A stretch of 64,000 bases of DNA from Bacteroidales bacterium (GTDB lineage Bacteria > Bacteroidota > Bacteroidia > Bacteroidales > UBA932), in assembly GCA_024401695.1 (NCBI GenBank), contig JAKSKN010000001.1, forward strand, positions 124,001 to 188,000, in the 5' to 3' direction. The stretch's first letter is position 1; every line of letters begins with the position of its first letter. Below the pieces are notes generated by a model that saw nothing but the letters and a program-made list of their open reading frames with translations, was not told the DNA's origin and made no database searches. Both the position numbers and the translations under genes were made by a program. Below, piece after piece: positions 4,039-57,818 of this stretch.

Positions 4039-4838
4039 TGCAGGTAAAATTCAAATCATTGTCCTCCGGCAGCTGCGGCAACTGCTATTTCATCGGCATC
4101 TTCAACGACGAGGGTGCCTGCGAGGCCGGTGTCCTGATAGACGCAGGAGTCAGCCCGCGCCGTCTCAAGAAGGAGCTCTCCGCAGACGGTCTGGGCTACG
4201 ACGACTTCCAGGCCATACTGGTCACCCACGACCATCTCGACCACATCCGCTCCCTCGGTTCGTACTGCAAGCATCTGCAGAAGCCCGTATGCACCACTCC
4301 GGCCATCCTGAAGGCCCTTTCCGGTCACTTCATGACAGGCGCACACCTTTCGGGGGTCAGGCGGCCGCTCGAAGATGGATGGAACGAAATCGTGCCGGGA
4401 CGCATACGCGTGCAGTACTTCGAGGTACCGCACGATGCGACCCAGACCGTTGGCTATGCCATCCTCCTCGACGGCTACAGATTCGTGATAATGACTGACC
4501 TGGGACGAATGACGCCGCAGGCGATGGCATTTGCGAAGCAGGCCGACACGGTGGTCATCGAGTCCAACTACGACCTCTATATGCTGCGTCACGGGCCATA
4601 CCCGAAGGAGCTCCAGGACCGCATATGCCAGGGGCACGGCCACCTTTCTAACATCGAGTGCGCCAAAGCGGTCAGCGAATTCGCGCACGAGGGGCTCAGG
4701 AACGTCTTCCTGTGCCACCTGAGCGAGCACAACAACGAGCCGCAGCTCGCCCACGACACGTCCCGCCCCGTGCTGGATGCGTCAATACGCCTGGCCCCGC
4801 TGCCGCGCCAGACCGCATCGGCTCTGTTTACCCTATAA
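4038..4838 (+). CDS. MBL-fold hydrolase, YycJ/WalJ-like
   Basis: A metallo-beta-lactamase fold protein of 266 residues. The N-terminus SLSSGSCGNCYFIG and the metal motif THDHLDHI are characteristic of the YycJ/VicX/WalJ branch, whose members are reported to be 5'-3' exonuclease-like; further ligands appear as PHDATQT, MTDLG and the C-terminal CHLSEHNN. The ATG at 4038 is preferred over an upstream ATG at 4017 because GGAGGAG precedes it, it overlaps the TPR stop (TGATG), and homologues begin with this short beta strand. It is cytoplasmic, with no signal peptide. The exact substrate is not known from sequence. Confidence 0.85.
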   Translation: MQVKFKSLSSGSCGNCYFIGIFNDEGACEAGVLIDAGVSPRRLKKELSADGLGYDDFQAILVTHDHLDHIRSLGSYCKHLQKPVCTTPAILKALSGHFMTGAHLSGVRRPLEDGWNEIVPGRIRVQYFEVPHDATQTVGYAILLDGYRFVIMTDLGRMTPQAMAFAKQADTVVIESNYDLYMLRHGPYPKELQDRICQGHGHLSNIECAKAVSEFAHEGLRNVFLCHLSEHNNEPQLAHDTSRPVLDASIRLAPLPRQTASALFTL

Positions 4839-4843
4839 TTTGG

Positions 4844-4851
4844 TATATTTG
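4844..4851 (+). promoter_or_regulatory. -7 box for the ABC exporter (leaderless)
   Basis: TATATTTG matches the TAnnTTTG consensus and lies only 5 nt before the ATG at 4857, so the transcript should begin within a few bases of the start codon. Confidence 0.6.
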
Positions 4852-4856
4852 TACTT

Positions 4857-6695: not shown

Positions 6696-7120
6696 TGAGA
6701 AAGAAGCAGGAGACTTCAAGCAGGGCGCTCATATTGCGCATCCTGATGATTCTGTACATACTCGCAGTAGGATTCCTGTGCTTCAACAACTTCAAGGACC
6801 TTCCCGAGGCGCCGAAATATCTGTTCGGCATCCCGGCCGACAAGATCGCGCATTTCTGTATGTTCTTCCCGTTCCCGCTGCTCGGTTTCTTCTCCTTCGA
6901 CCATCAGCGCTGGAGCAAGATGGAAACCGTAGGCAACGTGATTTCGCTCATCGCCTGGGGATGCATCTTCGCCGGGCTGACCGAAATCGTCCAGGGGATG
7001 CTGCCGTACCGATCACAGGACATAAAGGATTTCAGGGCCGATGTTCTTGCCATCGCAATTTCTTCACTATTTGTATTGCTGATCGATCTCTATCTGGTCA
7101 AACACCCACGCCGCAGATGA
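6692..7120 (+). CDS. VanZ-like membrane protein
   Basis: A small integral membrane protein (about 142 residues) with four predicted hydrophobic segments. The pattern ADKIAHFCMFFPFPLL, LTEIVQ and the DIKDFRADVLA near the third and fourth helices are typical of the VanZ family. The gene overlaps the ABC exporter stop (ATGATGA; either of two adjacent ATGs may be used). Family function is poorly understood; some members affect glycopeptide sensitivity. Co-transcription with an envelope exporter and a peptidoglycan amidase suggests a role at the envelope. Confidence 0.8.
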   Translation: MMRKKQETSSRALILRILMILYILAVGFLCFNNFKDLPEAPKYLFGIPADKIAHFCMFFPFPLLGFFSFDHQRWSKMETVGNVISLIAWGCIFAGLTEIVQGMLPYRSQDIKDFRADVLAIAISSLFVLLIDLYLVKHPRRR

Positions 7121-10017: not shown

Positions 10018-11052
10018 GTAGATCAATCCGCTGACAACGATCACGGCAGGTATCGTGAGGACCCAGGCCCACACGATATTCTTTGCCGTCATCCACTTGA
10101 CTCTCTTGAATCCTCTTGTAAGGCCGGTGCCGATGATGGAGCCGGTTATGGTGTGGGTCGTGCTGACAGGGATGCCGAGCACTGCCGTCATAATGAGCGT
10201 GAAAGCGCCGGAAAGCTCAGCGCAGAAACCCTGGGTAGGGTTGATACGGCTGCTCAGGCCGTCGCCGAGAGTGCGGATGACCTTCCACCCGCCGGTGACA
10301 GTACCGATGGCGATGAGGCCGTAGCAGACATATTTGAGCCACATAGGCACATAGAATCCGGTCTGCCCGGCAGCTGCGGCGGCTACGGCACCATTGCCGT
10401 ACAGGAACTGCATCAAGCCGCTATCGGGATTGGAGGCAAAGGCTGTCGCGAAGAGGATGGCGATGACGCCCATAGTCTTCTGGCCGTCATTTCCGCCAAA
10501 TCCGAGTGAGAATGCCGCCGAAGACACAAGCTGCATCTTGCGCATCACCTTGTCGACGTTCTTCACATTGCGGTTCCTCAGGAAGACCATAAACAGGCAG
10601 TTCAGGGTGAAACCCATCAGCATACCCAGAAAAGGGGAAATCACTATGAACGCAAGTATCTTGAAGATGCCTCCGCCAATAAGGTACCGGGCACCATAGA
10701 CAAACCATACCGGTCCGATAAGGCCGCCTACAAGTGCGTGCGAGGCCGAAATCGGCAGGCCGACCTTCGTGCAGATGAATATCCACAGGACAGAGCCCAG
10801 CAGGGCGGCAAGGATGACATAGACATCGATGCAGGACTCCTGTACGATGCCTTTGCCCATAGTGGCGGCAACCGTTGTGTCAAATATGAAAAGCGCTATG
10901 AAAATCCAGAACGCGGCCCAGGCCACCGCCATTTTCGGAGGGAGGGCCTTGGTCGAGATGACGGTCGCGATGCAGTTGGCCGCATCGTTCATACCGTTGG
11001 TAAAGCTGAAGATCAGAGCTATCAGGGCGGTTATGAGTACTATCGCTATCAT
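9973..11052 (-). CDS. pit: Pit-family inorganic phosphate permease
   Basis: A 359-residue polytopic protein with the two inverted PHO4/PiT repeats: FTNGMNDAANCIATVISTKAL near the N-terminus and GIPVSTTHTITGSIIGTG near the C-terminus, plus LPISASHALVGGLIG and GFGGNDGQKTMG. It imports phosphate (as a metal-phosphate or with protons) across the inner membrane. The DUF47 regulator lies 3 bp upstream in the same operon, the usual arrangement. The 3' end overlaps the convergent amidase gene by 45 bp. Confidence 0.92.
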   Translation of the reverse strand: MIAIVLITALIALIFSFTNGMNDAANCIATVISTKALPPKMAVAWAAFWIFIALFIFDTTVAATMGKGIVQESCIDVYVILAALLGSVLWIFICTKVGLPISASHALVGGLIGPVWFVYGARYLIGGGIFKILAFIVISPFLGMLMGFTLNCLFMVFLRNRNVKNVDKVMRKMQLVSSAAFSLGFGGNDGQKTMGVIAILFATAFASNPDSGLMQFLYGNGAVAAAAAGQTGFYVPMWLKYVCYGLIAIGTVTGGWKVIRTLGDGLSSRINPTQGFCAELSGAFTLIMTAVLGIPVSTTHTITGSIIGTGLTRGFKRVKWMTAKNIVWAWVLTIPAVIVVSGLIYLAMVHWFGVPVKVL

Positions 11053-37369: not shown

Positions 37370-38725
37370 TTATAGTTTTGAATCGTTTATTTTCAAATTA
37401 TCTTTATAGAAGCGTTTCTGAAGGAAATGCTGAACTTCGTGCACATACACAAGATGCGCCTTAATAATCAAATCTTTGAAAGTGTTTTTTCTTTCGTCGA
37501 AACAACGTTCAAAAGCATTCATATAGTATGAATAATCCGTACTATGAGAAGGGACCTCGTCGCCTGGGAAAACTATTGATGCAGCAATAATAGGATCATA
37601 ATAAACCCATCGGTCTTCAATACCATCTATAGCCACAGGCATTAATTCTGTTATGGGAACACCTTTCTCAACTCCAACCAACCTTACAGACTGACCATCG
37701 ATTGATAATATCTTATACAGATTAATACCATACCCATGATAATCACAAGATTTCTTATATTCTTCCGGATTTTTCAGTTTTACAATATCTCCAGTCTTAA
37801 ACGGTTCAGGTAACTTGATAAAGGAAAACAGTTTCCTATCTGATACTTTATCCATTTCGCTCAGTTGCCCTATCAGTAAAGGAGAATGAGGGTCATGAGA
37901 CATCCTGTTTTTTCTTACCACACCATCTCTAAAGTTTGCATAGCAATATTTGCAGCCATGAGTACAAGTATTATACTCTCCAATGTCAATACTCTGAACA
38001 CATCCACACTCTTGCCTTTGGTTGGAATCTTTGCTTACTACCAACTTCGCCCCTATCAAATCTTCTATCAGCACATTATCAATACACTTTCCGTGCTTTA
38101 TTCCGATTGTTTCTAATGCAATCTCCTCGGCACAGGTCTGTATGGTTATCCCGTATTTATTTGCAATCAAGTACATCTTTGAAGATAGCTCAAACATTTC
38201 TTCCGTTGAAGGTTCTCTCGCTTCGGTATCCTTCAAATTATTTTGAGTTTTCTTGTATAGATCAACGAAACTTATAACGCAAGTATTGGTGTAACCTTTG
38301 AGCCTTTTGGCAATCTCTTCGAAATAGTGAATATGATAATCCACATCCATTTGAGAGGTTAGTAAAATCGGATCGTATCTCCATATTACTCTTTTTGCAC
38401 CAATTTTACTTGACAGCTCTCTAAATGTATTGATAATTCCTTCTTTCTTCGGAACACCAACTTCAAAAAACTTGTCGTATGCATTGATGGTGAATTGAAA
38501 ATAGTACATATAATCTTTCAATTCATCCAATCGCTGAAGCATTGGTTTCGGGTTTTTGCTCCAAAATACTATGCAATCTATCACTTCAGGTGAGAGCACA
38601 ATCTTGCTTACCTGATGAATGTTCATCGGGTTTCTCACATATACAAAGCCCTCCTTCAATCGATTGAAAAACCAATCGCTATAAAAGGCCGGAATATCGG
38701 TACGTCTGCTAACACTCAGTATCAT
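37370..38725 (-). CDS. DUF1848 protein with long C-terminal extension
   Basis: The first about 300 of 451 residues match DUF1848: MILSVSRRTDIPAFYSDWF, VFWSKNPKPM, VIWRYDPILL and the Cys cluster C240-x-C242 ... CTHGCKYC (254-261), a C-x3-C-x2-C site as in radical SAM enzymes. Residues about 300-451 are an added domain (LPEPFKTGDIVKLKN, FPGDEVPSH) not usual for the family; it may bind the partner. Function is unknown. The ATG overlaps the stop of the Cys-rich protein (4 bp), so both are translationally coupled. Confidence 0.75.
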   Translation of the reverse strand: MILSVSRRTDIPAFYSDWFFNRLKEGFVYVRNPMNIHQVSKIVLSPEVIDCIVFWSKNPKPMLQRLDELKDYMYYFQFTINAYDKFFEVGVPKKEGIINTFRELSSKIGAKRVIWRYDPILLTSQMDVDYHIHYFEEIAKRLKGYTNTCVISFVDLYKKTQNNLKDTEAREPSTEEMFELSSKMYLIANKYGITIQTCAEEIALETIGIKHGKCIDNVLIEDLIGAKLVVSKDSNQRQECGCVQSIDIGEYNTCTHGCKYCYANFRDGVVRKNRMSHDPHSPLLIGQLSEMDKVSDRKLFSFIKLPEPFKTGDIVKLKNPEEYKKSCDYHGYGINLYKILSIDGQSVRLVGVEKGVPITELMPVAIDGIEDRWVYYDPIIAASIVFPGDEVPSHSTDYSYYMNAFERCFDERKNTFKDLIIKAHLVYVHEVQHFLQKRFYKDNLKINDSKL

Positions 38726-39597
38726 TGAACTCTGATAATTGTTTGAATACTATTTACTTCACTGAAAGGAGCATATCTGTTGACAATTGAAGCATTATTC
38801 ATCCGAAATTTCTGACGAGGAATAATCTGCCCATACTGTCCAATAAAATTATTGAGGCCAGAATATTGCCATGCGAGAATACCACAGTTAATTCCGGAAT
38901 GATTAAGCGCATTCAACAAATCACGAGAAGCTCCTACAGAGATTTTCAGATATATGTCATTTACCATAATATATCGCACGTGTTTCTGTTCAATAAATGT
39001 AACTAGATTATCCAAAAAAACATTGAAAGCCACCGGATTAAACTTCTTCATATCGGACAACATATAGTTGAGAACGATCACATCCACTCTTTCTTGGCAA
39101 TCAGCATAATGGGCAAAAACATCTTCACAATACGTCTCAACGTCAGCATTTGGAAAGAACGTTACAACTTGCTGCATCAATGAATCCCACCATACACGTT
39201 CTGTATCAAATCCTCTAAAATGGTACATAGAATCAGGCTTCCCCATTGACCGCCATTGCAAAAGAGAACCGAATAATTCTGTACAAGGGCCACATCCAAT
39301 AGATGCGATGAAAATATCTTCAAATTGAGACAAAGAAGCTTGTTCTCTTTGAAATTCATAAAAAATCTCTGCTCCAAAACGATACCCATGCTTAAGGGTG
39401 TAACAATATACCATCTTTTCACAGTTGTAGTGGATTGTAGTGTTCCAATAATGATGTACTCGTTGAATGCATGAATAGCAGTCTTGCTGCTGCCCTTGGC
39501 AATAATTGGCATTGGTACAAGCATTCCCACATTGACAAGGGGAACTGCTACTATACATCTGGTCGCACCAGTTCAGGTATTCTTCAAGTTCTTTCAT
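38722..39597 (-). CDS. Cys-rich methyltransferase-like protein
   Basis: A 291-residue protein with seven Cys in the first 45 residues (C11, C21, C23, C27, C33, C40, C43), likely a zinc or Fe-S site. FIASIGCGPCTELFG (97-110) followed by FRGFDTERVWW and VDVIVLNYMLSDM gives the pattern of a class I SAM-binding Rossmann fold with the motif I Gly-rich loop and an acidic residue at the end of strand 2. I do not recognise the family. It lies 106 bp downstream of qatD and is coupled to the DUF1848 gene. Confidence 0.55.
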   Translation of the reverse strand: MKELEEYLNWCDQMYSSSSPCQCGNACTNANYCQGQQQDCYSCIQRVHHYWNTTIHYNCEKMVYCYTLKHGYRFGAEIFYEFQREQASLSQFEDIFIASIGCGPCTELFGSLLQWRSMGKPDSMYHFRGFDTERVWWDSLMQQVVTFFPNADVETYCEDVFAHYADCQERVDVIVLNYMLSDMKKFNPVAFNVFLDNLVTFIEQKHVRYIMVNDIYLKISVGASRDLLNALNHSGINCGILAWQYSGLNNFIGQYGQIIPRQKFRMNNASIVNRYAPFSEVNSIQTIIRVQ

Positions 39598-39703: not shown

Positions 39704-40378
39704 TTATATCTTATTTATCAATGCATTAAAATTGTCATTGATTACTTTTGAGCCGATATAATCGTAAACCTTTTTGAGATTGTTTTTTCTGTTATATGGT
39801 GCATCTGTCTCAGCAAGTATTCTATTTCGGGGGATAGCTGAGATGATTTTCCTTCCATTCTCAGATAAAGTCATCGCCTCATTAACAGAAAAATAATATC
39901 CTTCTCTTGCAATGTGAGGAATGAGAGAAATAGGACCTGAATACCAATGAAATATCGCGTTCTTAATTTCGTACTCACATAATAACGTGAGAAGTTCCTT
40001 TTCTGCCCTTCTAGAATGAATACTCATCATCTTATTTTTGCCACGTAGCGCCGATAAAATAGTTCTTATCGATGAAATTTGGATTTCTTTTGAGCCGACA
40101 TAATCTCTTGAAAAATCCAATCCAATTTCTCCTATGTATGAAGTTCGATCAATCAAGTCAATGAAACGTTGAAGTTCATTTTGATTGTCCGCAGCCAACT
40201 GAGGATGAAAGCCTAAAGCCAATCTAACATGTTTGTAATTTCGAGTATGCGCAAAACCCATCTCAAAATGACTTGGTAGGTTTGTCATTCCAATGACATA
40301 ATCCCCACGGAGCTCAACTTCCCGAATATACTTTTCAGGAGAAGGCATCATATCAAAATGACAATGTGTATCAACCAT
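39704..40378 (-). CDS. qatD: QatD, TatD-like metal-dependent hydrolase
   Basis: ATG at 40378 overlaps the qatC stop (TGATG); a TTG 9 bp upstream is less likely. The 224-residue protein has TatD-type motifs VDTHCHFD, GEIGLDF, MSIHSRRAEKEL, FHWYSG and AETDAPY, binding two metals. In the Qat anti-phage system it is one of four essential parts; the target is not settled. Gap to the next gene is 106 bp. Confidence 0.85.
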   Translation of the reverse strand: MVDTHCHFDMMPSPEKYIREVELRGDYVIGMTNLPSHFEMGFAHTRNYKHVRLALGFHPQLAADNQNELQRFIDLIDRTSYIGEIGLDFSRDYVGSKEIQISSIRTILSALRGKNKMMSIHSRRAEKELLTLLCEYEIKNAIFHWYSGPISLIPHIAREGYYFSVNEAMTLSENGRKIISAIPRNRILAETDAPYNRKNNLKKVYDYIGSKVINDNFNALINKI

Positions 40379-41715
40379 CAACTCCAACCTAAATAACTAA
40401 GGATAGTCTCATTATTATCATCTCTTATCATTGCAGATAACTCTTCTCTCGTTCTGACAACCAAATCAGCGTATTCATCCAAATCATCAAAACAACTCAT
40501 ACCCGCAATTCGTAGTTCTCTCTTGATATCGTCACGCGTTAAATCCTTTTTCAAGAACTCAAGCATCGCAAAAAAGTCTTCAGCAACCTTATAGCCTTTT
40601 CTATCGTATAATGTCATGAATCTATTTCCGTATGTGGTATTATCACATTCGCCAATCATAGCCGCTTTTCTATACATACAAGGCATACAATGTCCACAAT
40701 GAGAAGCATTGTGATTATCGTACATAAATTGGTGCATGTTACGTTTCCCACAGGAATTGGATTCTGAAACAATTTTTAGCATATACGCTTTATCCGCACA
40801 ATTCCGAACCATCTCCCCTTTTGTCATCTTCTCATAAGGATTCTCAATTTCTATTCTCAGGCCAAGACTCTTAAGTATTTCTCTATACCTTTTGAGAAAA
40901 ACAGGATGTGTTGTGCGAGTGCTGCACGATGCTCGTCTTGACCGAGATAATGGATAATTTAAAGAAACTGATCCATTTTCCGGAACAACAATCTTGCATC
41001 CAGAATAAGATGCAACAATAAGTGCAATCGAAAGAAACATAAATGAGCGAGATCTACATGATAATTCATTCGACATTGCAGGGCATATCAAAACAGCAGG
41101 CATAGAACAGAATCTTCCTGAGAATTGCTGACTAAACAATTTCTTTAGTCTATTCTGATCAGACTGAGGACCTGGCATACTACTATCATAATGAGAAGCC
41201 AAAAACAACTTTCCATTTGGGTTATTTGTCATATAATCAATCGCCCCAATCAACGAATCCATTCCACCAGAGAACAAGTTCACTTGAGTTATTCCATCAA
41301 AACAGGTGGAAGGTTTATATTTTTCATAACGAACAGAAGCATCACCAATAAAATCCAAACACCAATAATCACCTGTCAAGAATGACAACATGGCATTAAT
41401 ATCGTTCCGTAAGGGTTGTAATGAATGCCATTCCGGAATGGCAATATCCACCTCAAACTCGCGAGACCATCCATCAATCGAATAAACCGAACGATCAACA
41501 GCTCGATCAATCGCATATACAATAGCCGAAAGATATAATAGGCTAAAGGAAATAGACGGGGCTTTCTCCCAGAAGAAAGCCATAGGGTGCAATTGTACAA
41601 CAGCCTTTGTGGCAAATTTGTTTCCCTTGACATCTTCAAATGTCAAACCAATAAAGAGACGGGTATCTCCTTGGCTGAACTTTCTTGTTGTGTATTTCGT
41701 CGTTTTAATCTTCAT
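40378..41715 (-). CDS. qatC: QatC, QueC-like PP-loop enzyme
   Basis: I use the ATG at 41715, which overlaps qatB by 11 bp and leaves 445 residues; an upstream ATG at 41832 would run through qatB for over 100 bp. Motifs: PP-loop LFSGGMDSLIG (149-154 the core) and the zinc motif HCGHCMPC near 340. QueC makes 7-cyano-7-deazaguanine; the QatC branch belongs to defence and has been proposed to act on a protein. The 140-residue N-terminal region is specific to this branch. Confidence 0.85.
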   Translation of the reverse strand: MKIKTTKYTTRKFSQGDTRLFIGLTFEDVKGNKFATKAVVQLHPMAFFWEKAPSISFSLLYLSAIVYAIDRAVDRSVYSIDGWSREFEVDIAIPEWHSLQPLRNDINAMLSFLTGDYWCLDFIGDASVRYEKYKPSTCFDGITQVNLFSGGMDSLIGAIDYMTNNPNGKLFLASHYDSSMPGPQSDQNRLKKLFSQQFSGRFCSMPAVLICPAMSNELSCRSRSFMFLSIALIVASYSGCKIVVPENGSVSLNYPLSRSRRASCSTRTTHPVFLKRYREILKSLGLRIEIENPYEKMTKGEMVRNCADKAYMLKIVSESNSCGKRNMHQFMYDNHNASHCGHCMPCMYRKAAMIGECDNTTYGNRFMTLYDRKGYKVAEDFFAMLEFLKKDLTRDDIKRELRIAGMSCFDDLDEYADLVVRTREELSAMIRDDNNETILSYLGWS

Positions 41716-42532
41716 TGCCTTGAAGTATAAAAAGAATCCTGTTAAACTCCCCCTTAATGAATGCATTTCCTTCTGGTTTGCCCCAATCAATTGATTCCAC
41801 GCTTCTCCCCGATCGTCCAGTCCGTATGTCATCCATAATTTGATCCTTTATCTCGTTCATTGCATTTTTCATTGCCACCGAACCTCTTTCGTACTCCAGT
41901 TTTTCCTCAAAATTCTGGGAAAGGTGGCTAAAGATGTACATGCCAAAGAACATATCAATCATATCTTTGAGTTCATCACCAGAAACAATTGTCCTCATCA
42001 TTTCGTCAAGATTCTCTATATCATCACCAACTCTTTCTTCAATACTATCAAGGATTGCCTCTAATGCTTCATTTGCAGCAGTTTCATCAAGTCCAACAAC
42101 ATCTGCTTCACAATATTGCTTTATAATGTCTAATATTTCATGGCAGCTCAAGCCAGATAATGAGGTGAATCCTCGATTTCGCAGCCAATCCAAGAGACCG
42201 TTGCTTGCTATTTCGTTGAAAATTAAAGCGAAACCGCCCGCCACAAAAATACCTGAATGACCAATGGCTCTAGACCTACCATTGCTAATACTATGTCTTC
42301 CCCCTCCAGCTCTCACCAGATTTCTGACAGCATGATGATAACCAGTTGTTATTCTTTTTCCTAACATGCTCTGTCTTTTTGCAATATTAGAAGGAGAAAC
42401 GCCCGGAGGAGGATTATCATTTAACTGGTTAGATTCATCAACATCTTTTGTCACACCAGTGACTGCAGAGGAAGATTTTCCCCAATTAGGTTCTCCTTTG
42501 ACTGTTGGCGTATGTCTATGTGATGTTCCCAT
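41705..42532 (-). CDS. qatB: QatB, Qat system protein of unknown activity
   Basis: A 275-residue protein of helical appearance. The N-terminus MGTSHRHTPTVKGEPNWG is disordered and Gly-2 starts the mature chain if Met is removed; other QatB proteins open with a similar MGTS. I recognise it mostly by position: second gene of an A-B-C-D set, between the KAP ATPase and QueC-like gene. QatA stop is 6 bp upstream. Confidence 0.8.
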   Translation of the reverse strand: MGTSHRHTPTVKGEPNWGKSSSAVTGVTKDVDESNQLNDNPPPGVSPSNIAKRQSMLGKRITTGYHHAVRNLVRAGGGRHSISNGRSRAIGHSGIFVAGGFALIFNEIASNGLLDWLRNRGFTSLSGLSCHEILDIIKQYCEADVVGLDETAANEALEAILDSIEERVGDDIENLDEMMRTIVSGDELKDMIDMFFGMYIFSHLSQNFEEKLEYERGSVAMKNAMNEIKDQIMDDIRTGRSGRSVESIDWGKPEGNAFIKGEFNRILFILQGNED

Positions 42533-42538
42533 AACTTA

Positions 42539-44422
42539 CTATTTTTCGTTTTTTCCGCTAATCGACCGCATCAGCTTGTCATTCGGGATAATCAGATTAA
42601 GAAATTTTTTATCGTCATTATATTTTTCTAAAATATCCTTAAACTTATTTCCGACGGAATATGGTATTTTCTTTACGTCAATTCTGGAGAGTATATTCAA
42701 AAGCCTAACATACGCCCGTTCAACATCATTCTTTATACAAAAGTAGTATATGCCATAGCATACTTTATCTTCAGGAGATGTTAATATTTTAGAATCCACC
42801 AATTCAAACAAATCCTCAACATCTGCTGGCGGTAATACAGCAACCTCATCTTTACATATTGTATTTCTAATTGGATCAGTAGAAGCATTATAAACCTTCA
42901 TAAATAGCGTTCTTATCCTAGTTGGCACAAGAGTCAATCCACTCATCTCATCTACCAAGTTATCTCTTGACACCCAAAATAGTTCTTTCATATCCACTGT
43001 ACTGAATTTTGGTTCCGAAATAACAAGATTCAGCAAATCTGGTGTATTCCAATCCTTGTACTCCGATATATCAGTTGTCCTATCCTGTGCATAAGCTTCT
43101 ATTGACTTCAATTCAAGTGGTACGCCTATACTGTTCATCACCCAAGAACTCAACTGCCTAAACTGTCCCTCGAATTTTTGCTCTATTAGCATCAACTTAA
43201 GAAGTGCAAATTTCGATTTTGTATCATTTACTCCTGACTGGGATAATAATCCAGAACGCATTTCGTATGCGTTCAGAAAACGTTTTATAAGTCTGGGATT
43301 CCATCTAAGTGAATTTCCAATCAAGGACGAGAATGGTGTAACAAAGCCTACCATTTCACCAAGTCCATCAGGAATATCATTCTGCAACAACTGATGTATA
43401 TTGTCCCATCCGTATCGTTCAAACTTTTTCTCTAATGTAAACCTGGCAAAATCTTCAAGAACTTTCTTAAAATAACGTTCTTCGAGTATTGATTTACAAA
43501 ACAGCAATGTTACGTATGTTTCAACCTCTTTTCGACTCAGAGCTGGTATCCTATATGGCAACTGTATAAATTTTTCCATGTATGAATTGCCGATTTCTCT
43601 CCTATTATCATTATTCTCCAAGTTAGCAGTTGCTATTATTTCTTTATACTCACTTTTGATAGCATTAGACACGATAAAACTGTCAGCCGCAATAACAAAT
43701 GCCGTCTTTGGAACATCCAGGAACAGTTTAATCGCCTCCAGATTTTCAATTATATGCCTTGGTAAACATCTATCAAGATCATCTATCAATACGACAATCT
43801 TTCCTTGTTTACTTTTATTTATCAGATCTTCAAAATCCTTTCTGAACTCACGTATCACTTCGTATTTCTTATCATCTCCCTCTGCATTAAGGGCTTCTTT
43901 CAAGAACTGATCAGCTTTTTCTCCCGTAAGCAGTTCTGTCAAATTTCCCGAATGATTTTTAAACGCATTCAACAATACAGGAATGATGAGCGATGTACCA
44001 CCGGTGCTGGCTGCCGCAGCTATGGGGATTATGGATTTGGCAGATACTTTTAGAACCCGCATCCAGTTTATCGACTTTCGCAGTTTTTTAAAAGCATTTA
44101 TCAATTCGCCTTTTTTATCTCCAACCTTTTCAAAAAAACGTTCCTCTTTCTCCAATGCATCAACAATACCCTGTATCAAGGCCATTTTGGCATCATCAAA
44201 ACTCTCGAAAGACCATCCATCGAAATATACCACAACAGTATCATCCTCCTTTTCAAGTTGATTTTCGAGGATTCTAAGAACACTTGACTTACCAGACCCC
44301 CAGTCACCATATAGACCTATAGTGATTGGAAGATTCTTATCGTTGGTCACAACGCTTTTTAACAAAGATGCATGAACAGTATAACCTAAAAGGTCTTCTG
44401 TCGTTTCTTTATCTGACCACAT
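42539..44422 (-). CDS. qatA: QatA, KAP-family P-loop ATPase
   Basis: ATG at 44422 (TTG at 44428 less likely) gives 627 residues. Walker A GDWGSGKSSVL (39-49) and Walker B VVLIDDLDRC mark the KAP NTPase fold, with two hydrophobic helices inserted between them (VSAKSIIPIAAAASTGG, SLIIPVLL) as is usual for membrane-associated KAP proteins. It is the first gene of qatABCD, which protects against phages. A DUF234-type ATPase gene ends 39 bp upstream. Confidence 0.85.
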   Translation of the reverse strand: MWSDKETTEDLLGYTVHASLLKSVVTNDKNLPITIGLYGDWGSGKSSVLRILENQLEKEDDTVVVYFDGWSFESFDDAKMALIQGIVDALEKEERFFEKVGDKKGELINAFKKLRKSINWMRVLKVSAKSIIPIAAAASTGGTSLIIPVLLNAFKNHSGNLTELLTGEKADQFLKEALNAEGDDKKYEVIREFRKDFEDLINKSKQGKIVVLIDDLDRCLPRHIIENLEAIKLFLDVPKTAFVIAADSFIVSNAIKSEYKEIIATANLENNDNRREIGNSYMEKFIQLPYRIPALSRKEVETYVTLLFCKSILEERYFKKVLEDFARFTLEKKFERYGWDNIHQLLQNDIPDGLGEMVGFVTPFSSLIGNSLRWNPRLIKRFLNAYEMRSGLLSQSGVNDTKSKFALLKLMLIEQKFEGQFRQLSSWVMNSIGVPLELKSIEAYAQDRTTDISEYKDWNTPDLLNLVISEPKFSTVDMKELFWVSRDNLVDEMSGLTLVPTRIRTLFMKVYNASTDPIRNTICKDEVAVLPPADVEDLFELVDSKILTSPEDKVCYGIYYFCIKNDVERAYVRLLNILSRIDVKKIPYSVGNKFKDILEKYNDDKKFLNLIIPNDKLMRSISGKNEK

Positions 44423-44461
44423 ATTCAATTATAATTAATTCTCCTTTATTCAATCCATCAT

Positions 44462-46536: not shown

Positions 46537-47616
46537 CTAAATCTCCCCCTTCCCACTCAGATGCCACTTTACAGAGTACCACACCCGTTCTCGCATCGTA
46601 ATGGACAAATAGCGGAATTTCCAGTTGTTGCCGGCGAGGGTTTTCAACTTATATACGAAGCGAGGCGCAAAACGCTTTGGGAAGACGCGCCGCTTGTCCG
46701 TCAGGATATATTCAAGCACGCCCTGGCATTCCGCTTCCGGAAGGCGTTCGAACAAAAGCTCCGAGAAATCAAGGCCGCAAACCCTTTCCGCCAACGACAC
46801 GAACAGATCGTTTGTCCGTTCAAGACCGAATTCCTGCAGTTTCCCGCGGACCAACTGCAAATCCAAGCCACCCGCTTCTGTCTTCAAGAACAGCCCCCAA
46901 TCCAGAATATGCCTTAGCCGGATGCTTTCAAACTCAGAGAAATGACGGGCCATGTGGCATAATAGGAAGAAGTAGTTCTTCAATGGAGATGGGGTATAGT
47001 AGCCGCCTTCGCAAAGGACATCTCCGTCCAATGACTCCAAAAAGGCCTGAACCTTTTTCTCGCATTTGGTTTGGAAAGAATCCAGATACATATAATGATT
47101 CTCCACCGTCACACCTTTGAATTCAAAGACGGAATGCTTTGGATGCTCGTTGTCAACAGGAATTCCACTGTCGGCAACTATTCTATCCACTTCCAGATGC
47201 CTACCATACGAGAAAATATCAAAGTCCCCCGTTGGCCTATGATGGGGAATCGGGTAGTATGTGGACAGGCCAAGCCCCTTCAGCAGAAGCACATTGATAT
47301 GTTGTTCCGAGAGAAGACTGACGAGCTCAGAGAAAGCACCCTGATGCCGGGAATATTCCGTTTCCGCCTGAAAAGTCGAGCCGAACCACTCATACTTCAA
47401 TGCCTCCAATTTCGGAGTGTCAATTGCCAACTCCAAGGAAGGAATCGACTCGTACAGTTTCTGCAAGCCATCAACTGCAATGACAGGCACAGCCTGAGCG
47501 AATGAAGAATCCACAAGATTTCTTCAATCCACTCCGGTGAAATCAAAGCCAGACTCAGTATCGTTTCCAATTCCGAGTCTTACCAGATACAGTAATGCCT
47601 GATGTTCGTATGTCAT
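46537..47616 (-). pseudogene. Nucleotidyltransferase-like gene with premature TGA
   Basis: From ATG 47616 the frame reads MTYEHQALLYLVRLGIGNDT then GVD, then TGA at 47524-47526, then RNLVDSSFAQA and on to 46537 (359 codons). The paralogue at 50011-51105 has TGG (Trp) there (GVDWRNLVDSSFAQ). So a single base change (TGG to TGA) interrupts an otherwise intact gene. The protein fold includes LLLKGLGLS, HRPTGDFDIF, the Gly-Asp-x-Asp of a nucleotidyltransferase-like site. Restart at GTG 47514 is possible. Family members sit in surface-polysaccharide loci. Confidence 0.8.
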
Positions 47617-48592: not shown

Positions 48593-50014
48593 TTAGAACT
48601 GGAAATAAATGAACGAACCACCATCGAGCACTCCGAACAGGAGAATCATCACAATCATTGCAAGATATGTCACCCACCTCACAACCGTATGCTTATTGTT
48701 TAGCAACTGGAACCTGCCGCCGCAGAACTCCGTAAGGAAATCCGCCACAAACACCAACAGCAGGAATCCGAAACTATACACCATCGTATCCGGGTCTGTG
48801 AACACGCTCCCGTGCGAAGTGAAAATCTTCCCCACAATCATCGAAGCATCCGCAAAGTTCTCCGCTCTGAAAAATATCCATGCAAACGACACGATGCAGA
48901 AGGTCACGACCATTCGTACAATATTCAGAAGCGTCAGTCTGTCGCTAATCTCCTTAATCTTGTTCCCGTATATCAGCCTCTCCACTATCATACACAATCC
49001 GTGAAATGCGCCCCAGATAATAAACGTATATTCCGCTCCGTGCCATAGTCCGCTGACCGTAAACACTATCATCGTGTTCAGCATCCAGCGGATCCTCTTC
49101 ACTCTGTTGCCGCCCAACGGAAAATAGATGTAATCCCGGAACCAAGTGGTGAGCGAGATGTGCCACCTGCGCCAGAACTCCGTAACTGTCTTTGCAAAAT
49201 ATGGCCTAACAAAGTTCTCTGGAAGTTCAATCCCAAGCAACTTTCCCGAGCCTATCGCCATCAGCGAGTATCCTGCAAAATCCGCATATATCTGTATCGT
49301 ATAAAGTATCGATGTCAGTAGCAGTGTGGTTCCGTTGTGATTGGCTATATTTCCATAGACCGCATCAACATAAATCCCCAATCTGTCAGCAAGACATAGC
49401 TTTAATACCCCCCCCCACAGGATTGATCTACAAGAACTTACGGCAGTATCATAGCTAAATTCGCGCCTCTTGAGATACTGCGGCAGCTGCTTTGTAGCCC
49501 TACTGATAGGACCGCTCAGGATAGATGGGAAGAAAGTGACGAATGCCAGATATGCCACCACATCCTTTGTCGCTTCCACCTTCCGCTGATACACATCTAT
49601 GCTGTAACTCAATGCCGTAAAGGTATAGAAACTGATTCCCACAGGCAGGATAATCTTGAGGGTCGATACCGACAACTCCTTGCCCAGCAGACTGAAACTA
49701 TCCACAAACGCCTGCACGAAGAAATTGTAATACTTGAACCCGAACAGGATTCCAAGATTCAGAACGATAGTACCAAACGAAATCCACCAACGCTTTCTAT
49801 CATCCACACGATTCATCCACAATCCTGCAAAGAACGTTGAGAATGCCGTCACGAGCAGCAATCCCAAAAACCGCCAGTCCCAGAAGCCATAGAAAAACAG
49901 GCTCGCAAGGACTATCAGCCCGTTCTGCAGGTTCTTGTTCCTCCTGCACACTATCCAGTAGAGCAGAAACACTACCGGCAGGAAGATTAGGTATTCAATT
50001 GATGCGAAGGTCAT
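48593..50014 (-). CDS. MBOAT O-acyltransferase (AlgI-like)
   Basis: A 473-residue membrane protein with about 11 helices. The MBOAT active His is in GLWHGAEYTFIIWGAFHG (about residue 330); TEFWRRWHISLTTWFRDYIYFPLGG is the conserved preceding loop. It passes acetyl from acetyl-CoA across the membrane to the partner. Codons around WGGV use a run of nine G (49408-49416 C on plus strand); one base slip would frameshift the product. It overlaps the upstream nucleotidyltransferase stop (50011-50014). Confidence 0.88.
   Translation of the reverse strand: MTFASIEYLIFLPVVFLLYWIVCRRNKNLQNGLIVLASLFFYGFWDWRFLGLLLVTAFSTFFAGLWMNRVDDRKRWWISFGTIVLNLGILFGFKYYNFFVQAFVDSFSLLGKELSVSTLKIILPVGISFYTFTALSYSIDVYQRKVEATKDVVAYLAFVTFFPSILSGPISRATKQLPQYLKRREFSYDTAVSSCRSILWGGVLKLCLADRLGIYVDAVYGNIANHNGTTLLLTSILYTIQIYADFAGYSLMAIGSGKLLGIELPENFVRPYFAKTVTEFWRRWHISLTTWFRDYIYFPLGGNRVKRIRWMLNTMIVFTVSGLWHGAEYTFIIWGAFHGLCMIVERLIYGNKIKEISDRLTLLNIVRMVVTFCIVSFAWIFFRAENFADASMIVGKIFTSHGSVFTDPDTMVYSFGFLLLVFVADFLTEFCGGRFQLLNNKHTVVRWVTYLAMIVMILLFGVLDGGSFIYFQF
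49408..49416. repeat. Poly-G(9) tract in the MBOAT gene
   Basis: Nine C on the plus strand (G on coding strand) in codons TGG GGG GGG GTA. Currently in frame. Confidence 0.8.
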
Positions 50015-51105
50015 ATTTGTATTCTTTTCTTAGCCAGATTAAATATCGTCACCACTATCCTCTCATCACTCACCATCCTGTATTTCCAGCGGTTGGCGAG
50101 GATTCTGCGGGTTTTGGCGATGGCGTAACGGATGGTGTGGCTTGTGGCTGGAATCTCTTTATCAAATTCGGGATGGAGGATGTCGGCAAGCATTCTCGAC
50201 TGCAATTTCTCGTCTCTCGTCCTCACCGGGAAGTTCTCGGCTGCAAAGCCCAGGCTCTCCACACAGATTCCGTTGAGGCAGTTCAGGAACGGACTGCAGC
50301 CGGAGGCCTTGGCATATCCATATACGAAATCCCAATCTATATTTGAGGCGTTCACCTTCACGAAGAGTGCCCAATCAAGGATATGCCTCAAGGTTATGTT
50401 CTTCACTGCAAAGTGGTGCGACATATGCCGGAGGAGATACACTGAGTTCAGCTTCACGGATGGAACGAAGCACTTCTCGCCCCCGACCTCTATCTCATTG
50501 CACCCCTCGGCTATCAACCTCTGGAACACCTGCTCATCCGAAAAATGATTCCTGTGCCGTTCAACATCCAAAAGAGTGATATGATTCTCGAACGTGATGC
50601 CATTGCGAGAGAACACGTAATGATGCGGATTGCTCCTGTTCACGGACACCTTCCAATGCTTCTCCACCAGCTGGCAGACAAACTCAGCATATCCGAAAAG
50701 ATAGATGTCGATATCCCCACAAGGCCTGTGACTCGGAATCGGGTAGTTCAGCGACAGGCCATAACCTTTCAACAGAAGCACCTTCACCTCCTGAAGCTTG
50801 CACAACTTCAGGAATTCCGAAATGGCGGATTGATGCCGATCATAATCGCTCTCGGCAGAAAAACAACTGCCGAACCACTCGTACTTTAGGGCTTCAAGTT
50901 CCTGATTATCGATGTCAAGCGTCAAACCAGAATGAGCCTCATATAAATTCTGCAGGCCATCAACTGCAATGGCAGGCACAGCTTGGGCGAATGAAGAATC
51001 CACAAGGTTCCTCCAATCCACTCCGGTAAAGTCAAATCCGGACTCAGTATCGTTTCCGATGCCGAGCCTTACCAGATATAGTAATGCCTGTTGTTCTTTT
51101 GTCAT
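50011..51105 (-). CDS. Nucleotidyltransferase-like protein of a polysaccharide locus
   Basis: A 364-residue intact paralogue of the broken gene at 46537-47616. The NTP_transf-like core is LLLKGYGLSLNYPIPSHRPCGDIDIYLFG with the GDxD acidic pair; further conserved segments are NITLRHILDWALFVK and WKYRMVSDERI. It belongs to the minimal/uncharacterised nucleotidyltransferase family found in Bacteroidota capsule loci. Activity on sugar or lipid is inference. An upstream motif GCGTT...CTTTTCAA is shared with the paralogue. Confidence 0.75.
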   Translation of the reverse strand: MTKEQQALLYLVRLGIGNDTESGFDFTGVDWRNLVDSSFAQAVPAIAVDGLQNLYEAHSGLTLDIDNQELEALKYEWFGSCFSAESDYDRHQSAISEFLKLCKLQEVKVLLLKGYGLSLNYPIPSHRPCGDIDIYLFGYAEFVCQLVEKHWKVSVNRSNPHHYVFSRNGITFENHITLLDVERHRNHFSDEQVFQRLIAEGCNEIEVGGEKCFVPSVKLNSVYLLRHMSHHFAVKNITLRHILDWALFVKVNASNIDWDFVYGYAKASGCSPFLNCLNGICVESLGFAAENFPVRTRDEKLQSRMLADILHPEFDKEIPATSHTIRYAIAKTRRILANRWKYRMVSDERIVVTIFNLAKKRIQI

Positions 51106-54062: not shown

Positions 54063-54833
54063 CTAAAACGTATAACTCTGAACTGCTACCTTTACCCCTT
54101 TTGAATCATCCCAGATGAAATCATACATCTCGGCATCCGTAAAGGCTGGAGCGCAAATTATGAAAGTACTATTAACACCCTTGTCTTGAGAATTCTGTTG
54201 GGTAGCGACACCCTCAAAACAGGCATTATCCATATTCTCGCCAATCTGAGCATGAAGAATGCAGAGAAGTCCGGCTATAGCATTCATTACATTCTCAAGG
54301 CTGGCATATTGGAAGTTCACATATCGGCTATGTTTGACATTATTATATCCCTGATACCAAGGAAGTGGCGCAAAGACTCCAGAATTCCAACAGGCAAAAG
54401 GTTTAAACTGATGGATCGGCCATCTGTCAAACGTTACCACATACTCGGATAACTTTGTAGCCGCTTCTATCTTGAAGTAGTCTTGGATATTCAAATTGCC
54501 GTCACCTGGTCTGACATATCCATTGGCATCAAGAATTCCTTTGCAGTTCGCCTCAAACTCTGTGGAAGCTCTCAGCAGCAGTTCGTACAGCCTATGGGAA
54601 TAGACGGGAAAATTCGCATTGTCGGGTTCCACATAATTGAATACTTCATATAGGCCCCGAATAATCAGGCGAGCAGTCGTGACAAGTGAACTCATTTCGT
54701 TCTGGTCAGCGAAACCATTGTCGGACAAATAGTCCAATTTACGGGCAGGACCATCTTCTTCCCACATTATTTGCGACCAGTCGTGGCCCTTCAGGGCTCG
54801 CCAGATTCTATGGTATGGATTGGGAATTGGCAT
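54063..54833 (-). CDS. Unknown protein with HEPN-like C-terminal helix motif
   Basis: A 256-residue protein without signal or membrane part. Near residue 163, YNNVKHSRYVNFQYASLENVMNAIAGLLCILHA resembles HEPN-type helices (basic N-x-x-K-H-x-R pattern before a long hydrophobic helix). Residues 1-50 contain WSQIMWEEDGPARKLDYLS. I do not recognise a family. It is the last gene of the four-gene module (76 bp after the 412-residue protein) and 28 bp upstream of a glycosyltransferase gene. Confidence 0.5.
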   Translation of the reverse strand: MPIPNPYHRIWRALKGHDWSQIMWEEDGPARKLDYLSDNGFADQNEMSSLVTTARLIIRGLYEVFNYVEPDNANFPVYSHRLYELLLRASTEFEANCKGILDANGYVRPGDGNLNIQDYFKIEAATKLSEYVVTFDRWPIHQFKPFACWNSGVFAPLPWYQGYNNVKHSRYVNFQYASLENVMNAIAGLLCILHAQIGENMDNACFEGVATQQNSQDKGVNSTFIICAPAFTDAEMYDFIWDDSKGVKVAVQSYTF

Positions 54834-54909
54834 GCAAAACGTTTTATAATATAAGCTCTTATCGAGAAAAGTCGTACAGATATTTAAAATTAATCGATCA
54901 TTACTATTC

Positions 54910-56148
54910 TCAATAGAGATCTAATTGCTTTCTTTTATATTCTATTTCATTACTTTCCGTATTTATATAATCCCAAACCTTTACCATTAGCGCATCGTGA
55001 ATTTCTCGCGCCAAGGGAATTACGCTCTTATACATGTCGTAGTTAGAATATGTAATGTGAAACTCTGACTCTTTGTTGTGAACAATACTGCAACGCATAT
55101 CATATACAAAGCGAGCAACTGCCTCATCCATCTCGTTATCACTTATGGTAGTTGACAAATAGGGCTTCCCATTTTTAGTACGTCCGAAAAATTCACCTAT
55201 GAAATTTTGAGCTTTTTTTATTTTGGCCTTTGAAGGACGAATGCCGGGAAACAATGCTTTCAACCCTGATATTACTGAGGTACGTTCATTATCCTCAAAT
55301 TTTTTGTTCATAGTCTTTACACTACGCAAAAAGGACTGCTTAAGAGAGCTACTGTTCACAATGCAATACATTTGCTTACGATACACCATATATTCTACTA
55401 TCTGGTACATCTTCATAAAGGCTGTTAATATATCCGAACTGTAAAGCCACTCATTAACTACATCTAAAATATCATAATACTGCTGATATTTTATTTTATG
55501 ATTAAAATTAAAAGCGTTGAAAGGTAGTTGACTGTTATCAAACATTAATTCCTCCACAATGGGAAGCTTTTGTTTTGAATGCATAAAAGCTGCCAACCCA
55601 AATGCATATAGGTCTTCTTTCTTAATGTTATTCTTCGGATAATGCTTGGGGTAACCTAATGCTGTCTTTATAAACCCAATGCAAAAGCCATCAGACACTC
55701 CAGCATAAAGTTGGTTTAGAAAGGTATCCCTTTGATTTGAGTCTAACATAATACTTTGCAGAGACATCCATATATCATCCCTATAGCGAGAATTGGGGTC
55801 TGGAGGGAATATATATTCAGATGTTATTATTGTCAGTCCTTTCCCCCTATAGAAGAATGGTCGTTTATATTTATCTGCAATTGGCTGGAACAACTCTATT
55901 GTACTATATTCTGGAATCAAATCATCTTCTTTGTTGGCATTATTGTATATATCTTTAATTGTCAATAATAAAGGCTTCAACGCCTGCTTAATGAAGGGAG
56001 CAAGTAGAAGACATGCTGCAGCATCATCCATATTTTCGTTATCAATATGGTCTATAACATCTTTATAATCAGGTGATGCAGGTAGCCAACCAGAGTATGT
56101 TGAAAGTATCTTTAACAGAATACGCTTATACAAGTTCTTTCTTTTCAT
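54910..56148 (-). CDS. Unknown protein with HEPN-like C-terminus
   Basis: A 412-residue protein. The C-terminal part (about 320-400) carries RFVYDMRCSIVHNKESEFHI, with R352-x4-H357 as in HEPN domains, many of which are RNases. The N-terminal 300 residues contain helices with no recognised domain (AACLLLAPFIKQALKPLLLTI, FNHKIKYQQYYDILDVV). Start lies 1 bp after the stop of the ParB/DGQHR-like gene. AT-rich compared with the glycan genes. Confidence 0.55.
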   Translation of the reverse strand: MKRKNLYKRILLKILSTYSGWLPASPDYKDVIDHIDNENMDDAAACLLLAPFIKQALKPLLLTIKDIYNNANKEDDLIPEYSTIELFQPIADKYKRPFFYRGKGLTIITSEYIFPPDPNSRYRDDIWMSLQSIMLDSNQRDTFLNQLYAGVSDGFCIGFIKTALGYPKHYPKNNIKKEDLYAFGLAAFMHSKQKLPIVEELMFDNSQLPFNAFNFNHKIKYQQYYDILDVVNEWLYSSDILTAFMKMYQIVEYMVYRKQMYCIVNSSSLKQSFLRSVKTMNKKFEDNERTSVISGLKALFPGIRPSKAKIKKAQNFIGEFFGRTKNGKPYLSTTISDNEMDEAVARFVYDMRCSIVHNKESEFHITYSNYDMYKSVIPLAREIHDALMVKVWDYINTESNEIEYKRKQLDLY

Positions 56149-56149
56149 G

Positions 56150-57391
56150 TCAATCCTTACTGGTTAATTGAGAAAAAACTTCTTTCCAACTTGCTTTGTT
56201 ATTCTTTATGAGATTAATCGTGTATAAACATATAGCCTTCCTTACTATTATGCCTATATTTATCTTCACACTTGACAAACTTTCATACTCATGGTTAAAA
56301 TTCTTTAAGTCGAATGGATCATGTTCAGGAAAGTTCTCTATATATTGTAACGCACATTCCCTACAGTTGAATGCGAACTCTTCATCCATAGGATTCGATG
56401 ACCTGATGCAATGACCTATACCAGCCATGATTCCTGATATAGTCGTATCTTTTATATACCACTTGTTATAGATATCATTTTTAGCCAATTTTGAATCTAA
56501 AGCGTAAATTATATCAATGCTATTATGGATAAACTCTACCGAAAAAAACATATCTACGGAGTTTTCTCCTATATAGCCATCTTCTTCAATTCCATCTGAG
56601 CTTAACTTATCAAAAAGCAAATCAGAGGAAAGCCGCACAGGCTCACCCTTAACCAGAGATTCCATCCCTATAATTATAGTAGGGATGTTATACTCTCCAA
56701 TGATTCGATTTCCGCTCTTTACACGGTTGAAGTCAAGGTCTTTACTTCTGTATAATTTAACCTCTGGGTGATTGCTCTGATATTTTTTGAACAATTTTAG
56801 ATACATCAATTCATACTGATGACTAATTGCCATACGCTTTTGTCCGGCATTTAGTATCAGCATTTTCTTTACGACTTCCGAATCAGAGAGGTTTACCCAT
56901 ATATAAAGATATAGACCATAATCCTTATATTTCTCCTGTAGATTCCAAACGGTTAAACCGTTATGATTACGATCAAACAAAGACCTTATTTGGCGAGTTG
57001 AAACCGCTTTTGAATAGTCACCAACATTTTCTCGCACAATAGAGGCAATCTTTTTATAATCATAGCAACGTTTTATGTTTGCCGTTTCTGTTATTTTCTT
57101 GTAAATCCATAAACGATACGTTCGCTGCAAGCCATCTAGAATATCAAACGAATTGAGATAAATTACATTATCAACAACATTCAATTTGTCTTGGGATACC
57201 AATGAGATTGGAGGGATTGGATTATTATCTTTTACTGACAGTAATATGCTATCCAGATATGGATTGTTAACGATACCTCTTTGAATATTGTAATTGAAAT
57301 CCTCCACATCTAAAGATTCCAAGTATTCCCATAAACAAACTTTTCCAAGAATCCATTTGTTTTCTTGTACATCTATTACGTCAATTCTCAT
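56150..57391 (-). CDS. ParB/DGQHR-like protein
   Basis: ATG at 57391 (TTG at 57412 less likely) gives 413 residues. NNPIPPISLVSQDKLNVV, then DILDGLQRTYRLWIYKK (DGLQRT near 86-91) match the DGQR/DGQHR motif of ParB/Srx-fold nucleases such as DndB and DUF262 proteins; MLILNAGQKRMAISHQYEL (near 180) is like the second motif of the DGQHR family. Role in DNA recognition or nucleotide hydrolysis is inferred. It overlaps the P-loop gene by 11 bp. Confidence 0.6.
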   Translation of the reverse strand: MRIDVIDVQENKWILGKVCLWEYLESLDVEDFNYNIQRGIVNNPYLDSILLSVKDNNPIPPISLVSQDKLNVVDNVIYLNSFDILDGLQRTYRLWIYKKITETANIKRCYDYKKIASIVRENVGDYSKAVSTRQIRSLFDRNHNGLTVWNLQEKYKDYGLYLYIWVNLSDSEVVKKMLILNAGQKRMAISHQYELMYLKLFKKYQSNHPEVKLYRSKDLDFNRVKSGNRIIGEYNIPTIIIGMESLVKGEPVRLSSDLLFDKLSSDGIEEDGYIGENSVDMFFSVEFIHNSIDIIYALDSKLAKNDIYNKWYIKDTTISGIMAGIGHCIRSSNPMDEEFAFNCRECALQYIENFPEHDPFDLKNFNHEYESLSSVKINIGIIVRKAICLYTINLIKNNKASWKEVFSQLTSKD

Positions 57392-57818
57392 ATCTATCGA
57401 TTTTACATTCAATACATTCCTCTATTGCATCGGCAACACCATCCTGCACACAATCATATAGATACTTATACTCATCCATATAAGGCATCCTGAACCAGCG
57501 GACTTTATCATCAGCCAGAACCTTGGCATACTTTTCCAACGCTATACAGCCATAGCCCCCTGTTCTTGTTGCAGAAATACAGATATCACAATTCAAATTT
57601 TTGAAAATTCGTATATTTTCGTTCACAACATCAAGACAATCACCACCTGGAGCAACACCGATAACCGTATTTTTATATCTATACACCTTAACTGTTTCGC
57701 CATGATGGCTTTCTTTATAAATGCGTTCTCCAAGAGACTCCAATTTCTCTTGCAGATTTATTAAAGTGGACGACTTGCCGCAATTCGCATGTCCCCATAA
57801 CCCTATTACTGCTTTCAT
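57381..57818 (-). CDS. Small P-loop NTPase
   Basis: A 145-residue protein; Walker A GHANCGKSST (residues 9-18) follows the first strand VIGLW. CDICISATRTGGYGC may be the Walker B-like strand with a following Ser/Thr-Arg. It is too short for a known large family and appears as a single domain. It heads the module 57818-54063 and its stop overlaps the next gene. No other domain seen. Confidence 0.65.
   Translation of the reverse strand: MKAVIGLWGHANCGKSSTLINLQEKLESLGERIYKESHHGETVKVYRYKNTVIGVAPGGDCLDVVNENIRIFKNLNCDICISATRTGGYGCIALEKYAKVLADDKVRWFRMPYMDEYKYLYDCVQDGVADAIEECIECKIDRYEN

Follow-up and report, generated by a model that had tools for sequence, protein, structure and literature searches.

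The stretch of DNA analysed here (the window) comprises 64,000 nucleotides of contig JAKSKN010000001.1 from a Bacteroidales bacterium (assembly GCA_024401695.1). Within a glycan locus it carries four genes on the minus strand, two of which are, as judged from their sequences, a real but divergent Bacteroidota member of Dazbog, a published defence system of two genes. In the order of the minus strand the four genes are:

57381..57818, minus strand: P-loop nucleoside triphosphatase (NTPase) gene (gene 1), 145 residues, Walker A motif GHANCGKS
56150..57391, minus strand: dzbA homologue (gene 2), 413 residues from the ATG at 57391 (the frame is listed from a TTG at 57412, 420 residues); DUF262/ParB-Srx-like, predicted DNA-modification sensor/NTPase
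54910..56148, minus strand: dzbB homologue (gene 3), 412 residues; C-terminal HEPN-type domain at about residues 218-405, predicted ribonuclease (RNase) effector
54063..54833, minus strand: mobile-family gene (gene 4), 256 residues, W..YNxVKHxR motif; judged to lie outside the Dazbog unit

All four open reading frames (ORFs), listed with 145, 420, 412 and 256 residues, are real. The TTG start listed for gene 2 is probably too early, and the start was moved to the in-frame ATG at 57391 because relatives begin near there. From this ATG, dzbA overlaps the stop of the P-loop gene by 11 bp; the gap between dzbA and dzbB is 1 bp and that between dzbB and gene 4 is 76 bp. An earlier account made from the letters and ORFs alone (the sequence-only reading) had described four AT-rich minus-strand genes, the first three overlapping or at most 1 bp apart, among glycosyltransferase genes. 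The strand, lengths and spacing were confirmed, and so was the setting: eight of the ten flanking proteins scanned with Pfam match glycosyltransferase, epimerase, MBOAT, EpsG or NTP_transf_5 families, and two are unmatched. AT-richness holds for genes 1-3 (34-39% G+C) but not for gene 4 (44%), which is similar to the nearest glycosyltransferases. The motifs named in that account, GHANCGKS, DGLQR, LNAG, R352-x4-H357 and KHSR, are all present. The Bacteroidetes-type promoter pattern occurs six times in the whole window, and none of the six lies immediately upstream of the four genes.

Gene 2 matches the PADLOC model of DzbA (PDLC03835) with an expect value (E) of 7.2e-27 in two stretches, the best at residues 159-409. 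Gene 3 matches the DzbB model (PDLC03836) at E 4e-7 over residues 232-372, a match judged by E and not by PADLOC's own score cut-off. None of the four proteins reaches the cut-off of a Pfam or NCBIfam family. Because of the two PADLOC matches, genes 2 and 3 are the named Dazbog pair and not an unnamed system. The proposal of a candidate new defence system was thus right as to a defence module and wrong as to its being unnamed. Applied to the aligned relatives described below with a limit of E 0.001, the DzbA model matches all 49 rows and the DzbB model 43 of its 49.

Relatives of DzbA were collected with an alignment seeded from three genomes and a Priestia plasmid, which was then used for a profile scan of contigs. 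The scan gave 47 loci (numbered with L below) from contigs of genomes and 9 from viral contigs; single-sequence scans with DzbA matched nothing, nor did tblastn against phages. The relatives are sporadic, being present in 2 of 249 genomes of the family and 3 of 395 of the phylum (E up to 1e-8, the window's own genome counted in both). For the count of pairing, 58 loci including the window were kept, after the short loci L001-L004 and L009-L013 and the duplicates L017, L022 and L061 had been dropped; the near copies L023/L024, L044/L056 and L049/L063 were each counted separately. Of these, 56 extend for 1.2 kb or more downstream and were testable; in every one of them, the window included, DzbB follows DzbA on the same strand within 26 bp. 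In 54 of the 56 the two genes overlap or are within 5 bp of each other. DzbB was uncalled only in L059 and L069, where the sequence ends within 310 bases. The DzbB profile used for this test was itself built from such downstream ORFs; an earlier five-row profile missed only L059, L066 and L069.

The two proteins have also evolved together. Their trees agree with a Mantel r of 0.87, the highest value among 999 shuffles being 0.20. Each of the two alignments has 49 rows, and the DzbA sequences of L023 and L061 are identical. The alignments omit L005 and L007 (on the same contigs as L022 and L017), L006, L008 and L024, as well as L058-L060 and L066-L069, which are truncated or have diverged strongly. 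In the 49-row tree, rooted at the midpoint, the DzbA of the window shares a branch, with a support of 100/100, with ten other rows from Bacteroidota and a single viral copy. Its closest relative is the sister L014 (43% identity). In L024 (1732-2983), from a gut Bacteroidales, DzbB is a near copy of that of L023 but is split into two ORFs, and this copy therefore appears broken.

DzbA of the window contains IQR (43-45), DGLQR (93-97) and LNAG, and the QR, DGLQR and LNAG motifs are invariant in all 49 rows. With E 0.1 as the limit, Pfam PF03235 (GmrSD_N) matches 19 of the 49 rows, most strongly at E 2.8e-5; the window protein is among the unmatched. The top structure matches of the predicted model are the DUF262-type proteins SspE, BrxU and DndI, the SspE match being confined to residues 16-185 of the model. 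The motifs and the modelled structure point to a DUF262/ParB-Srx-like fold, consistent with the ParB/DGxQR-type protein of the sequence-only reading. Sequence-profile searches of the PDB with the DzbA and DzbB alignments (A3, A4) and with alignment A9 returned nothing relevant.

DzbB of the window contains R352-x4-H357 together with E252, E362 and H364. R352 and H357 are invariant in 49 of 49 rows, while the pattern R[NDHCS]xxxH occurs anywhere in 8% of shuffled DzbB sequences. Given this comparison and the invariance of DGLQR and LNAG in DzbA, the motifs of the pair exceed chance. The predicted model of DzbB is helical across residues 221-397. Its helix 337-356 ends inside R352-x4-H357 and is followed by a loop; the end of a helix is the described place of the HEPN R-x4-H motif (PMC3710099). 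AbiA and Csm6 are among the top five structure matches, with modest scores. Motif and helix end thus suggest a HEPN-type C-terminus, in agreement with the earlier assignment of a 412-residue R-x4-H HEPN-type protein, and the structure comparison, run for DzbA and DzbB, lends this assignment modest backing.

The division of labour between the two proteins could also be the reverse. DzbA would then be the effector, for instance one acting on DNA like SspE, and DzbB a structural or inhibitory partner. SspE and similar DUF262 proteins do act on DNA (PMC9646914), and the structure scores of DzbB are modest, as stated. Nevertheless, such an arrangement is rather unlikely: a DUF1524 match is listed by Pfam for none of the 49 DzbA rows, the DHx[FY]P motif is absent from DzbA of the four loci linked to Ssp genes that are described below, and Dazbog is stated to have DUF262 without DUF1524 (PMC10952713). 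The invariant arginine and histidine of DzbB also speak for DzbB as the active partner.

The P-loop gene gives only weak, unrelated PADLOC matches (E 0.007 and 0.047). A search of 296 genomes gave relatives of 138-143 residues in two genomes besides this one (E 2e-10 and 5e-9), and both stand apart from DzbAB. A single-sequence scan, tblastn against plasmids and phages and an alignment scan of viral contigs were all empty. A further match among 199 genomes of the family (E 1.6e-4) has five internal stops and is therefore not a gene. Since the P-loop gene and dzbA overlap, the arrangement suggests that the P-loop gene is part of the transcription unit of this copy. One could go further and regard the locus as a new three-gene variant of Dazbog in which the P-loop NTPase is required and either adds nucleotide sensing or regulates DzbA. 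The 11-bp overlap favours such a variant, and so does the G+C content at third codon positions (GC3), which is 0.336, 0.336 and 0.344 in the P-loop gene, dzbA and dzbB, as compared with 0.41-0.50 in gene 4 (0.455) and the two adjoining glycan genes on each side. More distant glycan genes of the locus are equally low (0.28-0.35), however, and composition alone is therefore no proof that the three genes form a unit. The P-loop gene is present in none of the 53 other DzbA loci that have at least 1 kb upstream, its two relatives are found away from DzbAB, and the arrangement is known from one genome only. The three-gene variant is therefore considered unlikely, and the P-loop NTPase is better described as a candidate locus-specific accessory gene that may modulate DzbAB.

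Gene 4 had been taken for a second HEPN-like protein. In five aligned rows its motif W..Y(N/Q)x(I/V)KHxR is conserved, with K167-H168-x-R170 following Y163, but R-x4-6-H is absent and no arginine occupies the motif position. With no Pfam family either, the HEPN assignment was not upheld; PADLOC gave no match to the protein. The family scan of its relatives gave weak unrelated matches and one match to NTP_transf_2 at E 2.7e-4. The gene 4 family occurs on 15 plasmid records, on 14 viral contigs and in three other genomes. DzbA was found by tblastn on none of the 15 plasmid records, and the 14 viral contigs share none with the nine that carry DzbA. A member of the family lies near DzbA in one of the 57 other DzbA loci (L046, 14245-14820), 3.7 kb away, the flanks compared being unequal in length. 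In six plasmid stretches that were read, the gene 4 relative lies in accessory DNA, where it is either annotated as a hypothetical protein or left as a frame without annotation. The family is widespread, mobile and uncharacterised, and its neighbours include AbiEii-type, RloB and AAA/UvrD-helicase genes.

A true four-gene system, as the sequence-only reading would have it, is suggested by the shared strand and tight spacing of the genes. The full set was found in no other locus, though; the gene 4 family is carried by plasmids and viral contigs without DzbA, and gene 4 is set apart by the 76-bp gap and by its base composition. Such a system is thus very improbable, and the four genes are not taken for a new system; gene 4 is judged to be a separate mobile gene outside the Dazbog unit. 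Two anecdotal observations concern genes 1 and 4. In two loci a relative of one of these genes stands close to a large ATPase gene whose start has an HxH, which we take to be PHP-like: the P-loop gene is represented in L074 (stretch 5684-9811) and gene 4 in L076 (stretch 3452-6706).

From 41 loci, 146 neighbours of DzbAB were chosen, and all but the three longest, 143 in number, were scanned with PADLOC. The results are raw counts, with no control set and no per-locus fraction, taken from among the matches listed (the best 25 of 237 families per scan) and not tied to individual members. Among the matches listed, SspC is found in 4 of 73 neighbours and SspD in 4 of 73. The order SspB-SspC-SspD-DzbA-DzbB was recognised from size, order and sequence starts in L051, L052, L055 and L057 (about 2800-10600 in each), and only for L051 were the Ssp genes confirmed singly by profile (SspB 1e-57, SspC 2e-150, SspD 8e-86). 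The DzbA proteins of these four loci form a single branch with a support of 100/100. The arrangement may represent a phosphorothioation-linked system not described so far, whose effector would be of HEPN type. DzbAB stands in the place of SspE in the four loci. In L052, L055 and L057 a protein of 820-835 residues overlaps the end of DzbB; that of L055 has no PADLOC match.

Other neighbours of DzbAB, at E up to 1e-10 and again among the matches listed, belong to restriction-modification, mad2/mad3, AriA- and PtuA-type ATPase, PD-Lambda-5 and JetC families. The L014 pair is flanked by a type IIG restriction-methyltransferase, 14 bp away on the upstream side, and by a relative of PD-Lambda-5_A on the other, and an MspI restriction-modification set lies near DzbAB on the Priestia plasmid. 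Next after the L007 pair comes a DUF262 protein (HEC-05). A kinship of DzbA to the latter was considered, as the QR and DGxQR motifs are collinear, but the profile-comparison probability is 2.4% and the likeness was therefore not used as proof. These surroundings also bear on the idea that the genes of the window serve the capsule locus as glycan enzymes. Their place among glycosyltransferase genes is in its favour; yet no glycan locus is seen around the relatives whose surroundings were read (L005-L008, L014 and the four loci with Ssp genes), several of them have defence-type neighbours, and the family and structure evidence favours defence, so that this idea deserves almost no credence.

The same glycan region of the window holds a second defence-like set, about 10 kb from DzbAB:

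39704..44428, minus strand: QatABCD-like set
42539-44428, minus strand: KAP-type ATPase at the QatA position, from ORF reading and gene order alone
41705-42532, minus strand: gene at the QatB position, from ORF reading and gene order alone
40378-41832, minus strand: QatC, NCBIfam E 5.5e-89, 298 bits, over the cut-off of 280
39704-40387, minus strand: QatD-like, NCBIfam E 2.5e-59, 200 bits, under the cut-off of 230

Beside it (37370-39597) are two genes, for a 451-residue protein, presumably DUF1848-like, and a 291-residue protein with a cysteine-rich start. Elsewhere in the window the proteins of 46537-47514 and 50011-51105 are closely alike over a stretch not far from their starts; the latter matches Pfam NTP_transf_5, a nucleotidyltransferase family, inside the glycan locus.

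Several sources bear on how Dazbog may work. It has DUF262 without DUF1524, its resistance requires the DUF262 gene, and methylated DNA is the likely signal (PMC10952713). Methylases can activate it (PMC12926258, PMC12409349), and the molecular mechanism of this activation was called unclear in a 2025 review (PMC12409349). Dazbog is classed under abortive infection (PMC11680222). The review literature, in its available passages, states neither that DzbB is a HEPN protein nor that DzbAB pairs with SspBCD; primary descriptions of Dazbog lay outside this scope. A literature search gave no text combining DGQHR and HEPN. Relative to the literature read, the mechanistic hypothesis offered here is better than what is on record.

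In this hypothesis, which is considered probable though far from assured, genes 2 and 3 form a Dazbog operon for abortive defence, with DzbA as a modification sensor bearing a nucleotide switch and DzbB as a HEPN RNase; the P-loop protein would be a possible modulator and gene 4 separate. Its backing consists of the pairing, the co-evolution, the motifs, the predicted folds and the links to modification genes in some relatives, and from these we infer the use of nucleotide, the mark that is read, the contact between DzbA and DzbB and the RNA target. DzbA would bind nucleotide through a pocket formed by QR and DGLQR and would read a DNA modification, such as phage methylation or a similar mark. 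Hydrolysis of the nucleotide would alter its contact with DzbB. The HEPN domain of DzbB, released or dimerised, would then cut RNA, and the infected cell would stop growing or die. In this genome the upstream P-loop NTPase may modulate DzbAB. The sensor and RNase logic of the sequence-only reading agrees with these proposed roles.

A broader proposal can be put forward only tentatively, being less likely than not. Dazbog would be an abortive system that senses modification, combining a DUF262 reader that resembles SspE with a HEPN RNase as a second protein, and its inputs would be interchangeable: phage methylation for a free-standing pair, a place beside restriction-modification genes, or coupling to SspBCD as a phosphorothioation-dependent RNase system not described so far. 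The P-loop NTPase would here be a third, translationally coupled subunit. Among 2,678 sspBCD sets, sspE accompanies 199, sspFGH 196 and both 36 more (PMC8092258), and most sets are therefore without either effector. DzbAB is a candidate effector for some of these. The R-x4-H of DzbB, the SspE-like predicted fold of DzbA and the Ssp-linked DzbAB of four loci make the activation of Dazbog directly testable.

Compared with known systems, DzbA resembles SspE, a phosphorothioation-sensing DUF262-DUF1524 protein. It differs in having no DUF1524 match; the putative effector of Dazbog is a separate HEPN-type protein, and no Ssp gene is found among the ten flanking window proteins scanned. DzbB shares with the HEPN RNases (the AbiA C-terminus, Csm6, RnlA) the R-x4-H at a helix end and an upstream acidic residue (E252, in Ex4[KR]), and with the first two the structural matches of its model. 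Unlike them it has Ex4[KR] and not the typical Ex3[KR] (PMC3710099), an E362-x-H364 extension that is invariant in 49 of 49 rows, and a DUF262-like partner. The HEPN-ParB operons described in 2013 (RiboL-PSP-HEPN, MAE_28990) likewise have a HEPN gene beside a ParB-like gene (PMC3710099), but their HEPN families are other than that of DzbB, and the available passages of that account state no link to Dazbog. With Dazbog itself the window shares both gene families and their order, the two genes being adjacent or overlapping. The window pair is distinguished by its place on a divergent Bacteroidota branch, by the extra P-loop gene upstream and by its position inside a glycan locus.

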